In this document: piece after piece, positions 37,773-43,011 of the stretch
How the letters are laid out: each line of letters begins with the position of its first letter
Position numbering within the stretch: the first letter of the stretch is position 1
From: Desulfovibrionales bacterium
GTDB taxonomy: Bacteria; Desulfobacterota; QYQD01
Direction: 5' to 3'
Length of the DNA stretch: 64,000 nt
Assembly: GCA_028715605.1 (NCBI GenBank)
Contig: JAQURM010000005.1
Location: 62,001 to 126,000, forward strand
Notes under the pieces: model-generated
The model's database searches: none
Told to the model about the DNA's origin: nothing
The model's input: only the letters and a program-made list of their open reading frames with translations
Program-made: the position numbers and the translations under genes

Positions 37773-37885
37773 ACGCTTTCCTCCAGTCTAACTGTACACA
37801 TCCGGTATGCCCACTCCCTATGGGTCTTAACACATATTTCTAAACTATTTTATCCTTAGAAGCCATCTTTTTTATTATCTACTAT

Positions 37886-37981
37886 GTCGCCTGCCGTTTT
37901 GAGTGCCTGAGAAGGGCGAAGCCTTTGGATGTTAACCTCAAGCACTCTTTTATCTGCCGTTTTTGCACTGTGTTAGGCGAC
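37886..37981 (-). other. attC-like recombination site, downstream of the DUF2283 gene
   Basis: On the minus strand GCCTAAC (37979-37973) matches the R'' consensus RYYYAAC and contains the stop codon of the DUF2283 gene. GTCGCCT and AGGCGAC (37886-37892, 37975-37981) frame an imperfect hairpin with GAGTGC/GCACTC inside. The other end reads GCAGGCG rather than GTTRRRY, so this copy is degenerate. Confidence 0.5.
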
Positions 37982-38188
37982 GTGTTTCTTCAGTTCGATT
38001 GAGAGAGGTGTTTGCTCTTTCAGCGTACTGACTTTCAATATGGAAAATCCAATGACATTCCCTTCATTATCTACTTTTTCCATCACTGCGTCATTTTCTG
38101 TTTCTTTGAAATAGCCCGTCTTTCGTTCAAAGAGAACTTCAAGATAATCCCCTTCTTTGTCATACCAAACTTTTATTGCTTCTCCCAT
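37973..38188 (-). CDS. DUF2283 family protein
   Basis: 71 residues. IKVWYDKEGDYLEVLFE followed by NVIGFSILKVSTL is the DUF2283 signature. Its function is not known; small proteins of this type are often paired with a toxin-like partner. It overlaps the upstream gene by 16 bases, with GGAG before its ATG. The stop TAA falls within GCCTAAC of the attC-like site, as in integron cassettes. Confidence 0.82.
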   Translation of the reverse strand: MGEAIKVWYDKEGDYLEVLFERKTGYFKETENDAVMEKVDNEGNVIGFSILKVSTLKEQTPLSIELKKHVA

Positions 38189-38487
38189 AACACATCTCCT
38201 TTTTTGATAGTGTCCGTAAAATACGCCGTCAATATAAAAACATCATCAACTCTTACCTTCACGATAACACACAGATATTTCTCATCAGCAGGAGTCATCA
38301 GGTAATGGCGATAAAAGAGTTCCGCTTCTGAATCTGTCTTCGATCTGACAACAATCTCCGGATGTGATAACGTTTCTGCAACCTTGTCAATTTGACCAGC
38401 CATTTCCGGATGGTCATTCTCAAAGTGTTCAAGACGCTCATCAGTAAGGCGCACGTTCCTATCATATAAGTCCTTAAACCATCTCAT
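38173..38487 (-). CDS. Putative toxin-like partner of the DUF2283 protein
   Basis: 104 residues: WFKDLYDRNVRLTDERLEHF, then HPEMAGQIDKVAETLSHPEIV, then a beta-rich end with KYLCVIVKVRVDDVFILTAYF. The layout (helix, PEIV strand, C-terminal sheet with a tyrosine) is like small RNase-type proteins of the PBECR/BECR kind, but no catalytic set is certain. It is the first gene of the cassette and overlaps its partner. Toxin activity is inference. Confidence 0.65.
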   Translation of the reverse strand: MRWFKDLYDRNVRLTDERLEHFENDHPEMAGQIDKVAETLSHPEIVVRSKTDSEAELFYRHYLMTPADEKYLCVIVKVRVDDVFILTAYFTDTIKKGDVLWEKQ

Positions 38488-38528
38488 TTTATAATACCAC
38501 TCTTTTAAATATGTTCTAAAGAAACATG

Positions 38529-38695
38529 TCGCCTAACGGGCTGGCGGGTTGGCGATATGCCCCGAAGGGGCATTTCAGCGAAGCCGCTAAACCGTGAGAT
38601 AGGCGATGTCGCGAGCAACACGTACTTCCCTTTTTGAAGCCTGTAACGGTTGATTGGAGCGGCTGAACTGCCACCAACCCGCCAGCCCGATAGGC
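38529..38695 (-). other. attC-like recombination site upstream of the cassette genes
   Basis: GCCTAAC (38531-38537) plus GGGCTGGCGGGTTGG at one end, and CCAACCCGCCAGCCC plus GATAGGC (38689-38695) at the other, are inverted repeats of 22 bases with one mismatch. On the minus strand the inner end reads GTTAGGC, the R' consensus. The cassette's first gene begins 44 bases later. The loop of about 120 bases is long for attC and includes a CCCC/GGGG hairpin. Confidence 0.6.
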
Positions 38696-38944
38696 AAAAC
38701 CGGCAGGGATTTTCACTAACCCTCCTACTGCCTGATTTTTCGATTATTACTCCCTTCCCTCCCGGGAAGCATCCCGAAGCCGGCCGAGCGATGTCTTGCC
38801 TATCGGGATGGCTTTGCGAAACAAACAGGCCACGGTCAAGGAATCCAATATGAAGACTGTTTGTTTGCCGTCAGGCCCTTTGCGCGAACCTGTTGTTATC
38901 TGTCCGGCGCGGGCAGTCTTTAAAAACAAAAGTGCCTTTGCAAT
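38696..38944. repeat. Further palindromic remnants, no gene seen
   Basis: GATAGGCAAAACCGGC (38689-38704) faces GCCGGC (38778-38783) and GCCTATCGGG (38809-38818), so another pair of inverted ends spans about 115 bases. A GTTATCTGTCCGGCGCGGGC unit (38892-38911) resembles GTTATCTGCCGTTGCGGGC at 39181-39199. This looks like debris of the same cassette-type element. Confidence 0.4.
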
Positions 38945-39139
38945 TCAGGCAGACAAAACATACTTCTCGATACGATCAATTTTCTTAATAATTTCTTCAC
39001 TGGGTTTACAGGACTGAATATCTTTCTTCAATTCTTCTAATTGATATTCGATGTCCAGTTTAACTTTCTCTTCCATATAGGACTGTTTAAATTCAGGAAC
39101 AGAAAGCTGTTTTTGAAAGTACTTTTTTGCGGTATTCAT
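38945..39139 (-). CDS. Small helical protein, antitoxin-like
   Basis: 64 residues, charged and helical. FQKQLSVPEFKQSYMEEK resembles the N-terminal part of Xre-type antitoxins, but no helix-turn-helix follows. GAGGT precedes the ATG. No toxin partner is beside it. Its stop lies in GCCTGAAT, similar to the attC-like GCCTAAC. Function unknown. Confidence 0.55.
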   Translation of the reverse strand: MNTAKKYFQKQLSVPEFKQSYMEEKVKLDIEYQLEELKKDIQSCKPSEEIIKKIDRIEKYVLSA

Positions 39140-39334
39140 TTATTACCTCAATTTTCCGAAGGGTGTAAACGCCAACCCGCTGTTATCTGCCGTTGCGGGC
39201 AAGTCCTTTTAAATAGTCGCCGTCCTACTGCTTTGTGGGCGATGACAAAATAACTTATAAATTTTATGTCTCCTTCTAAGTAATGAGGACATTCTCCTTT
39301 CTTTATGACTTTCCCTAATTATTCATCTCACCCT

Positions 39335-40561
39335 CTATATTTCTACGAACATAGAGGTAAGACAATCGGGCCAGTATAAAATTATTTTTTCTTCATTTTT
39401 CCGAAGAATTAACCTGATAGGTCCATCTTGGGATATGACAAAGACAATACTATCCGGACACGCACCGGCAAAATTTATTGCTGAATTGTGTTTAGTCCCA
39501 AGCTTAGAAACATCGATAGCTTCTCCTCCTGTTTCGAATCCATTTGATCCAAGCCCATCAGGTCCTTTTATAATGCTACCGCCCCACTTTGGAGCGTCAA
39601 GTGTAGAACCAAATGATAGGATATCTAAATCTGCGGTTATTATTAGTGCGCCATCAATACATGACGACTGAGCTAAAAAGTCTAGTCTTTCAGCAAATAT
39701 TTTATTTAATCCAGATCTTGCGGCAATATCCCCACTATGTAGGCTTAACACTTTTACTATCAGTTCATTTAATTTGAAGCTTTCTTTTAAAACGTATTTT
39801 GATACGATAACATTTTCATATTGTTCAATTTTATTGCTCGGCAATAAGACTATCGTTCCTCCATGACCACGTTTAGCCGCTTGAAATAATAAATAAAGGA
39901 GCGCTTCACGATAAAATAGCCAGTATTTATTTTGAAATTTTCTGAATCCCTCGTGGCTTTTAATCGCATCTAAAAGATATGGTACCAAAGCATACCCAAT
40001 AGGACTTGGTGTTGAACGTTCAAAGCTCCCATTTATGAACCGACCGATTATTGAATCTTCACGAGAAATCAAAAGTGATCCCGGGGAAGTAGCTGTCACT
40101 GTTATAACATCTGGACGAAAATAATCAAAATCTGTAAAGGCAAACGAGTTTTCGGTAAATCTGCTACGGTGGGGTCTATAGAACATTACACCCCAGATTT
40201 CATATTCAATTCGCGTTTCGTCTTTTGGAGCAACAATTAAAGAAGAATTTACAAGATCAAATGCAGGCGCAATTTTTGCGATAGAGTCCTCTTTAAATGG
40301 AAGACTTTCCTCAAATGGCATAATAAGTTGTTTCCGGCCAAAAGATTGTTCTTCCATAATAGAGTTCTTATATAAAAGCGTAATGCTAAAAGTTATTGGC
40401 CTATCTTCTTCACGTTTTAAGCTCGCCAAAAAACTTTTCTCTACGATAATGCGTATATCTTGAAGATGAGGAAGTGGTTTTTGCTTTCTACCCCTATGAG
40501 GATGAGTCTGATCATCCGACCAAGCGTCGATTATTTTGTGAATTATTGATTCCTCAAACAT
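39335..40561 (-). CDS. Diadenylate-cyclase-like protein with N-terminal sensor-type domain
   Basis: 408 residues. The C-terminal third resembles the DisA_N diadenylate cyclase domain: CIDGALIITADLDILSFG (the DGA motif) and LGTKHNSAINFAGACPDSIVFVISQDGPIRL, which lines up with the LGTRHRAA...SEE region of CdaA/DisA. The usual RHR reads KHN, so catalysis is uncertain. The N-terminal two-thirds is probably a sensor domain, comparable to the DACNV-type domains predicted next to such cyclases. Codon use is AT-rich compared with neighbours and there is no clear ribosome site. It sits among toxin-antitoxin-like genes, which suggests a stress or defence role. Confidence 0.65.
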   Translation of the reverse strand: MFEESIIHKIIDAWSDDQTHPHRGRKQKPLPHLQDIRIIVEKSFLASLKREEDRPITFSITLLYKNSIMEEQSFGRKQLIMPFEESLPFKEDSIAKIAPAFDLVNSSLIVAPKDETRIEYEIWGVMFYRPHRSRFTENSFAFTDFDYFRPDVITVTATSPGSLLISREDSIIGRFINGSFERSTPSPIGYALVPYLLDAIKSHEGFRKFQNKYWLFYREALLYLLFQAAKRGHGGTIVLLPSNKIEQYENVIVSKYVLKESFKLNELIVKVLSLHSGDIAARSGLNKIFAERLDFLAQSSCIDGALIITADLDILSFGSTLDAPKWGGSIIKGPDGLGSNGFETGGEAIDVSKLGTKHNSAINFAGACPDSIVFVISQDGPIRLILRKNEEKIILYWPDCLTSMFVEI

Positions 40562-40680
40562 AACTGATTTAATTTTAATAACTTTTTGAATGATAGCTCT
40601 TTTCTTTGTTCTTTCTACATACCTGCAATGAGCGGTTTGGCTCCACGGACATAATCCTATTTAGTGGAGAATATCAACAC

Positions 40681-40795
40681 CTGTTTCGGATATTCTACTT
40701 CCGTCCTCGGCCCGCCAAGGCGGGCTGCCTGAATGCCGGAATCTCCCCCCTGACAAATATGTTGCCGATCTCTGTTACGGCCCTCATATTCTCCT
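40681..40795. repeat. Direct repeat B, left copy
   Basis: CTGTTTCGGATATTCTACTT followed by a GC-rich variable part and GACAAATATGTTGCCGATCT. The end part (40736-40792) is almost the same as 41552-41606. It lies in the 383-base gap 40562-40944, where no gene is seen. Confidence 0.75.
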
Positions 40796-40944
40796 ATGAC
40801 CCTGTTATCCCATTACTTGGTACACAGCACTAGCCTTTTCTCTCCGCCCGCTGATATTCTCCATTGCTCACCCCGTCATTTCAGAGCACCTTGCAGTAGT
40901 TCCATAACCTTTGAAAAGTAGCTGTTCTTTCGTGTGCCATAATA

Positions 40945-41175
40945 CTACCCGCGCTGTTTTTTGATGAGACCTAAAAGGTCTTCCTTTCGAAGGCCACATT
41001 GTTTCAAAATGCCAAGGATTGTTCCTTTGGCAAGTTCATCATGGAGAGGCACAACAGTCTTATAAGCCTCTTTCTGCAGACTTATATGGCTACCCTTCCG
41101 GCGCACCACATGAAATCCATACTTTTCAAGAGCACGAACCATTTCCTTGCCAGAAATAATGGGAAGTTTAGGCAT
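40945..41175 (-). CDS. hicA: HicA mRNA interferase toxin
   Basis: 76 residues from ATG 41175, which lies inside the last codons of hicB, with GAGG nine bases upstream. ISGKEMVRALEKYGFHVVRRKGSHISLQKE has the family's double-stranded RNA-binding-like fold and the catalytic histidine in GSHISL. It cleaves mRNA unless bound by HicB. A TTG at 41184 would add three residues. The partner is directly upstream in the order hicB-hicA. Confidence 0.9.
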   Translation of the reverse strand: MPKLPIISGKEMVRALEKYGFHVVRRKGSHISLQKEAYKTVVPLHDELAKGTILGILKQCGLRKEDLLGLIKKQRG

Positions 41176-41389
41176 TGGCAGCAACCTCGAAAGGATAGAG
41201 AACTACTTCACCCGTACTTTCCGGCAGGTCTTCGCTTCCAAAACTCTCAAGATAGAGTTCTACTGCTTCCTTAAGGTTTGACTGGGCCTCCTCAATCGTC
41301 TTACCCTGACTTACAACACCCAATTCCACACAATGAGCAACATACCACTTCTCTTCCTTGGTAATTATTGCGGTAAACTTTTTAGACAT
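41168..41389 (-). CDS. hicB: HicB antitoxin
   Basis: 73 residues. The partial RNase H-like fold is clear from FTAIITKEEKWYVAHCVELGVVSQGKTIEEAQSNLKEAVELYLE. The short C-terminus has no added DNA-binding domain, so self-regulation would need another factor. GGAG precedes the ATG. It overlaps hicA by eight bases. Confidence 0.9.
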   Translation of the reverse strand: MSKKFTAIITKEEKWYVAHCVELGVVSQGKTIEEAQSNLKEAVELYLESFGSEDLPESTGEVVLYPFEVAANA

Positions 41390-41491
41390 GGTGCGTCTCC
41401 TTTAAAAAGGATTGTTTGGATTTTCTATGTTTGTGTTTTGTTTGTTTTATTTTACCCTCATTTGACCCTCCAGATCTTGGGATTATCCAAG

Positions 41492-41610
41492 ATGTTTCGA
41501 ATATTCCACTTCTTCCCACCCCGTGCGTGGCACAGCTACAAATGGCTGAAGTGCCGGAATCTCCCCCTGACAAATATGTTGCCGATCTCTGTTACGGCTC
41601 TCATATCTTT
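41492..41610. repeat. Direct repeat B, right copy
   Basis: GATGTTTCGAATATTCCACT...GTGCCGGAATCTCCCCCTGA and CAAATATGTTGCCGATCTCT match the left copy, which is about 810 bases away. The hicBA genes lie between them. Confidence 0.75.
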
Positions 41611-41639
41611 GCTGTATGCATCGGAATTGTCAAATGTTT

Positions 41640-41835
41640 TCTATAAGCAGAAATCCGCTGTCTCTTCTTCCTATTACCGGTTTCCTTCCGTGAGGAGGTC
41701 GTTTCAGAAATCACTATCTCCGGTAATAGCTCTCCAGCCGCGAAGAATCGCAGCAAGATGCTGCTCCTACGGGCCTGCACGTCGCATGCAGCTAGGTGGA
41801 AACGCCCTCAAAATGTAGGAGCACTTTCCAAGCGC
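41640..41835. repeat. REP-like palindromes upstream of radC
   Basis: CGCAGCAAGATGCTGCTCCTAC (GCAGCA/TGCTGC) and a TCCGGTAATAGCTCTCCAGC unit, then AATGTAGGAGCACTTTCC, resemble REP sequences of other proteobacteria. The 550-base gap 41390-41939 has no credible gene. Confidence 0.5.
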
Positions 41836-41939
41836 AACGGGGCCTTTTCTCATTTTTGGCAGCGAATCCGATGCCAAAATAATATTCTGGATTCGCCGCG
41901 CCATTTAACTTTTTCTCACCTCCGCCGATATTTCCCATT

Positions 41940-42623: not shown

Positions 42624-42664
42624 GATGAGCTTTCAGCTATCAGCAATCCGCTGTCAGCAAAAAG

Positions 42665-42865
42665 AAAAATCGTAACACTTTAGCTGTTTGAAAAGAGCTA
42701 ATCGTCCAGAAAACAGCGCCTCAAAAATCCCCCTTAATCCCCCTTTTTCTTCGCCCCGGCGAATCCGCCCGAGTGCGGAAAAGGGGGAAGTGATGGGCCG
42801 CCGTTTTTCCCAAAGGAGGTCTTAACGTCTCCCCCCTTTCGGAAAGGGGGGCGAGGGGGGATTTG
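42665..42865. repeat. Composite repeat in the radC-hypA gap
   Basis: CGTAACACTTTAGCTGTTTG, then an NPP-type unit (CCCCCTTAATCCCCCTTTTT, GGCGAATCCGCC) and another (CCCCCCTTTCGGAAAGGGGG). From 42668 to 42785 it is the reverse complement of 10495-10590. The remaining part of the 388-base gap has no gene. hypA starts at 43012. Confidence 0.75.
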
Positions 42866-43011
42866 GTCCTGGGTTTTGCAGCATTTTCAAGATACTAAAG
42901 TGATACGAAAAATCTAGTCTCCTATCGAAGGCTGACGGCTGAAAGCTTCTTGCAATAATAAAGGTTCTCATTGACCCCGGAATGGCTATTATGTTAGAGA
43001 TTCGATAACCC

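Follow-up and report, generated by a model that had tools for sequence, protein, structure and literature searches.

The open reading frame at 39335-40561 (reverse strand) of the window, i.e. the complete stretch of 64,000 nucleotides that was analysed, encodes a DACNV-DAC protein, in which an N-terminal DACNV domain is combined with what sequence and a structural model identify as a divergent diadenylate-cyclase (DAC) domain. The ATP-site residues suggest that the enzyme is probably active, and we consider it fairly likely that the gene represents a horizontally acquired, solitary, soluble and sensor-regulated second c-di-AMP synthase of its host. The feature, which was pointed out in a preliminary description, is real; its family was already catalogued and its context had been over-read as a system.

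The gene and its product

The open reading frame is intact (ATG at 40561, stop at 39335) and lies exactly where, and on the strand on which, it had been placed before; its start is supported by the colinear N-termini among relatives (MFEESIIHKIIDAW vs MFEDHIIKKIIETW). The GC content of the gene is 0.371, and the codons are indeed AT-rich, as had been remarked, with a GC3 of 0.271 against 0.47-0.64 in the flanking core genes. The features are:

39335..40561, reverse strand: DACNV-DAC protein, 408 aa (open reading frame, Pfam, structure model and Foldseek)
40187..40489, reverse strand: DACNV domain, putative sensor, residues 25-125 (PF21751, E 6.7e-16)
39362..39931, reverse strand: DAC-fold region, about residues 211-400 with limits taken from the model (PF02457, E 2e-6; secondary structure of the model; Foldseek matches to CdaA/DisA)
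39647..39655, reverse strand: DGA motif, residues 303-305 (D and G invariant, 24/24 family members)
39479..39502, reverse strand: LGTKHNSA, residues 354-361, counterpart of GTRHRxA (G355 and H358 invariant)
39422..39433, reverse strand: SQDG, residues 377-380, counterpart of (V/I)SEE (S 24/24, Q 23/24, D 22/24)

Domains and fold

The DACNV domain, a 'probable sensor domain' in the words of Pfam, was recognized with 58.7 bits (curated cut-off 27), and the C-terminal DAC domain scored just above its curated cut-off (27.8 bits vs 27). Neither NCBIfam nor PADLOC (0 families) yielded a match to the protein, and no homologue was found when the PDB was searched directly by sequence. When the AlphaFold model of the full protein (pLDDT 77.8, pTM 0.70, 11-sequence alignment) was compared with the PDB using Foldseek, the best 50 matches were all diadenylate cyclases (CdaA, DacA, CdaM, DisA and others), the best one having an E-value of 5.2e-5 and a probability of 1.00, with 65 matches at E<=1e-3; the global rmsd was large and the TM-scores were moderate, and what the comparison supports is the class of fold, not a fine superposition. 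Profile comparison connected the C-terminal half to 27 canonical DACs over the GTRH-SEE stretch (E 6.1e-8), and hhalign matched the stretch from GTKH to SQDG to the CdaA-type cyclase of the host itself (E 4.9e-6). The divergent DAC domain that had been proposed is borne out by these data, and the structural match to the DAC fold, on which that proposal had been made to depend, was found with the predicted model.

A separate model of the N-terminal half (pLDDT 76.8) had no Foldseek match in the PDB or among the BFVD viral models, neither to any DAC nor to anything else, and the designation of DACNV as a putative sensor therefore rests on the Pfam label and on its position. The sensor domain suggested earlier is recovered in the form of DACNV, though it takes up about the N-terminal half and not two-thirds of the protein, as the DAC fold starts at residue ~211. 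That DACNV is a degenerate second DAC domain, derived from an internal duplication, is not supported: the order of helices and strands is similar and hhalign aligned 32 columns of DACNV and DAC (E 0.017; score 21.7 vs <=14.0 in 30 shuffles and 14.7 reversed), but DACNV shows no similarity to the canonical DACs (E 0.32) and the model of the N-terminal half, as noted, matched no DAC. Neither a CdaA_N transmembrane domain nor the C-terminal, DNA-binding helix-hairpin-helix part of DisA was called in the protein, in which the DAC domain itself is C-terminal; the protein is soluble.

The active site

In the structure of CdaA with ATP, side-chain contacts are made by Leu31 (GALI), Asp71 (DGA), Thr102-Arg103-His104 (GxRHRxA), Ser122 and Glu124, the last of which holds the metal; the second R of RHR makes no such contact (PMC7288161). 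The equivalent residues, by alignment to CdaA, are GGTI (for GALI), D303, T356-K357-H358, S377 and D379, and judged by sequence the site is kept or conservatively changed throughout; SQDG would, by analogy with S122 and E124 of CdaA (PMC7288161), provide the phosphate and metal ligands. Conservation was evaluated over 24 diverse family members, including the window protein, from four phyla (that of the window, Bacillota, Planctomycetota and Bacteroidota). No variation is seen at D303, G304, G355, H358 or S377, and D occupies position 379 in 22 members and E in one. Position 357 is always positively charged, with R in 23 members and K solely in the window protein. At position 359, the third of RHR, R is found in 12 of the 24 and N, Q, C, H or K in the remainder.

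The DGA motif of active diadenylate cyclases (D303-G304-A305) and the LGTxH block are present as previously described, with KHN in the place of RHR. Of this deviation only the K is unusual; the third R varies family-wide, which makes the N unremarkable, so that KHN is not to be read as a loss of activity. In terms of the aligned sequences, N359 is a trait of the close relatives and K357 is peculiar to the window copy. The departure from RHR lowers the claim of activity and not that of family membership, and the invariant residues together with the charge at position 357 lead one to expect a working site. Replacement of RHR by AAA abolishes the activity of Rv3586 (PMC3328451), a result that is no test of an R-to-K change. 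The signal producer that had been suggested is probable, given a DAC domain with conserved ATP-site residues.

Relatives and origin

DACNV matches were found in 21 of 395 genomes of the phylum (19 above the cut-off). The close relatives, from Syntrophaceae and other deltaproteobacterial MAGs, are 38-42% identical over the full length; the wide-family alignment was too diverse for a contig scan, so the relatives named here were drawn from the close clade, supplemented by a few distant matches. In the tree the window protein is placed next to the Syntrophaceae clade (support 100/99) on a long branch (0.93). Members of that clade (UBA6087, UBA1062, Phox-21 and relatives) have the same start and end and carry the motif GTRHN. 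In the family to which this clade belongs, DACNV was detected in a single genus, in 7 of its 8 genomes, and the remaining genera lacked it. In every Syntrophaceae locus examined the DACNV-DAC gene faces a divergent PAS histidine kinase, and in most the gene precedes a penicillin-binding transpeptidase, as at L028 (7702-12580), where it lies between the two; neither gene adjoins the window copy. These surroundings are the only conserved neighbourhood that was seen and provide a lead for an envelope role.

In the other clades the gene is surrounded by a mixture of genes for metabolism, transport and regulation. PADLOC analysis of 51 such neighbours gave scattered matches (mostly one member per family, several of generic ATPase or regulator types) and no clearly recurrent defence family. 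The search for conserved neighbours that had been recommended was carried out, and none of the genes neighbouring the window copy recurs beside any relative, which led us to reject an operon with a conserved partner. The housekeeping context in relatives that had been named as counting against the original idea was largely encountered (metabolic, transport and cell-wall genes, with the gene near-fixed in the closest genus).

A phage origin was rejected, as no relative turned up in phage records, nor in viral contigs scanned with patterns from the close clade only. A single plasmid match was obtained among the relatives. On a Hymenobacter plasmid (L080, 3584-7110) a DACNV-DAC gene directly follows a gene for a patatin-like phospholipase, reminiscent of the DS-2 phospholipase, and no CBASS cyclase is annotated in that stretch. 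The sister placement to Syntrophaceae, the absence from four same-genus genomes, the GC3 of 0.27 and the variable site described below fit a horizontal acquisition of the gene.

The variable cargo site

The gene is located in a variable cargo site (37773-41939 of the window) between CBS/DUF47/Pit and RadC genes. The four same-genus genomes that lack DACNV have flanks in common with the window, consisting of Pit/DUF47/CBS at one end and RadC with hypothetical genes at the other, and carry between them a DUF4143 ATPase (one genome), a PemK-type toxin (another) or unclassified open reading frames (a third), although for some the site is split over contigs and synteny is partly assumed. The accessory location that had been proposed is confirmed by this variability and by the lack of DACNV in these four genomes. 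The toxin-antitoxin-like neighbours are likewise present, with HicA and the HicB-like antitoxin upstream of the gene and the PBECR2-like/DUF2283 pair and the orphan antitoxin downstream:

41168..41389, reverse strand: HicB-like antitoxin, context (DUF7387 5.6e-7; weak UPF0150/HicB-like matches)
40945..41184, reverse strand: HicA toxin, context (PF07927 2.8e-17)
38945..39139, reverse strand: orphan antitoxin-like gene, 64 aa (Gp49-type toxin partner absent here)
37973..38487, reverse strand: overlapping DUF2283 and PBECR2-like pair, putative toxin-antitoxin, context (DUF2283 1.9e-7; PBECR2 7.5e-5, below cut-off)

The same 64-aa antitoxin-like gene adjoins a Gp49-type toxin in another genome of the genus (L086; 96% DNA identity). 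The DUF2283 and PBECR2/DUF4258-like genes (37973-38487), a candidate toxin-antitoxin pair, have counterparts in two other genomes of the genus (94-98% DNA identity). Short dispersed repeats, perhaps MITE-like, were noted at 42657-42913, 38523-38821 and 40646-40801, with many copies elsewhere in this genome and in same-genus genomes. Taken together, the locus looks like a variable cargo site and not like a dedicated defence system.

Comparison with known diadenylate cyclases

Both domains, their order, a similar length and the invariant residues are shared with the DACNV-DAC family (PF21751 + PF02457), to which the N-terminal DACNV and C-terminal DAC assign the protein. The family carries the RefSeq product name 'putative sensor domain DACNV-containing protein' and includes WP_243520307.1 of Hymenobacter monticola; most members are ~20% identical to the window protein, which is unique in having K at the first RHR position (1/24). 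Since Pfam and the product names of RefSeq already include this architecture, the term 'undescribed' does not hold; in the literature searched the name DACNV does not occur and no activity is on record.

With CdaA, DisA and CdaS the protein has the DAC catalytic fold and the core ATP-site residues in common. The host's own CdaA contains the N-terminal CdaA_N transmembrane domain that is absent from the window protein, and DisA has its DAC domain N-terminally, ahead of a helix-hairpin-helix part, whereas here it follows DACNV. A distant relation exists to the DAC of the DS-2 anti-phage system (NCBIfam NF053872), likewise C-terminal behind DACN-type putative sensor domains; DS-2 is an operon in which this DAC, a validated component that cannot do without its catalytic residues, is accompanied by a phospholipase and a cyclase of CBASS (PMC13092281). 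A DS2_3-like protein of the same phylum has the architecture DACND-DACNH-DAC, and its DACNH match is weakly overlapped by DACNV, which makes it kin through the DAC domain and weakly similar putative sensors. Such a protein, related to the DS-2 DAC model, is encoded at L025 (997-2394), with a DGA motif and ARFN replacing TRHR, and a further seven genomes of the phylum have similar genes.

Alternative explanations

The substitutions at the active site could also mean that the DAC domain is degenerate, a regulatory pseudo-enzyme that has lost c-di-AMP synthesis, still binds ATP or c-di-AMP and serves as a receptor or as a partner of the host CdaA. Pointing that way are K357 and N359 where RHR has its two R residues, SQD instead of SEE, and a long insertion ahead of GTKH, modelled with low confidence at 337-344; but N359 is common to the close relatives, SQD is found in almost the whole family including members with GTRHR, the remaining ATP-site residues are all kept and K is a conservative change, and we regard this explanation as doubtful. 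It is very improbable that the drifted phosphate-contacting motif yields a different product, such as a linear or mixed dinucleotide: the unique K357 and the GGTI that stands for the adenine-contacting GALI would agree with it, but the base contacts in CdaA consist of one leucine side chain and one main-chain atom (PMC7288161).

The preliminary description had also envisaged a defence or stress system, a reasonable idea since a related but different DAC architecture, that of DS-2, is proven in defence (PMC13092281). A role in defence is possible though unsupported here. A protein acting like the DS-2 DAC, in which phage infection would lead to a cyclic nucleotide and a growth stop, would suit the adjoining HicAB, putative PBECR2/DUF2283 pair and orphan antitoxin, the DUF4143 ATPase or PemK toxin at the same site in other species of the genus, and the need of DS-2 protection for DAC catalytic residues (PMC13092281). 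The window gene, however, is flanked by toxin-antitoxin-type, Pit/DUF47/CBS and RadC genes, with no CBASS gene adjacent; the DS2_3 model (NCBIfam) is not matched by the protein and no CBASS (SMODS) cyclase is found in the host genome, on which grounds membership of CBASS/DS-2 was rejected. The neighbours are not conserved, no PADLOC family matches, the surroundings in relatives are housekeeping, the gene is near-fixed in one genus, and the searches of phage records and of viral contigs, the latter with close-clade patterns, gave no relative, with a single match on a plasmid. We therefore consider a DS-2-like function quite unlikely. A single-gene module, in which DACNV would detect infection or damage and the K-H-N cyclase would arrest growth by raising c-di-AMP or another dinucleotide, with no CBASS partners, is improbable as well.

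A probable second source of c-di-AMP

The host genome contains a standard CdaA gene (CdaA_N + DAC) and a gene for a PgpH-like 7TM-HD protein, and on the basis of these c-di-AMP is probably already made and degraded in the host. A search of the whole genome with the c-di-AMP riboswitch model gave nothing above the cut-off, and such a riboswitch was rejected. In the second-synthase reading, the DAC domain would bind ATP via D303, T356-K357-H358 and S377, with the metal on D379, as in the CdaA-ATP structure, and two DAC domains would come face to face, like those of DisA and CdaA, to convert 2 ATP into c-di-AMP. DACNV would sense a ligand or partner and switch or assemble the DAC dimer, and the product would add to the pool presumably run by the host's CdaA-type cyclase and PgpH-like phosphodiesterase. 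This c-di-AMP might conceivably act on envelope or osmotic physiology, a hint of which is given in the sister clade by the adjoining histidine kinase and PBP genes; HicAB and the other toxin-antitoxin-type neighbours would share the variable site with the gene as unconnected cargo. The unique K357 at a phosphate-contacting position, the inactive AAA variant of Rv3586 (with the reservation given above), the absence of the name DACNV from the literature searched, a DACNV without structural match and the negative riboswitch search count against this reading.

DACNV proteins are catalogued in databases with a sensor half that lacks a structural match, and the conservation of the active site over four phyla argues for working cyclases that respond to some input. 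Whether the second, and even the first, R of RHR is needed could be tested simply with the window copy and the relatives that have GTRHN, and the link of DACs to phage defence through DS-2 makes solitary accessory DACs worth screening. If the second-synthase reading is true, the DACNV-DAC protein would be a second, soluble and differently regulated source of c-di-AMP in its host.
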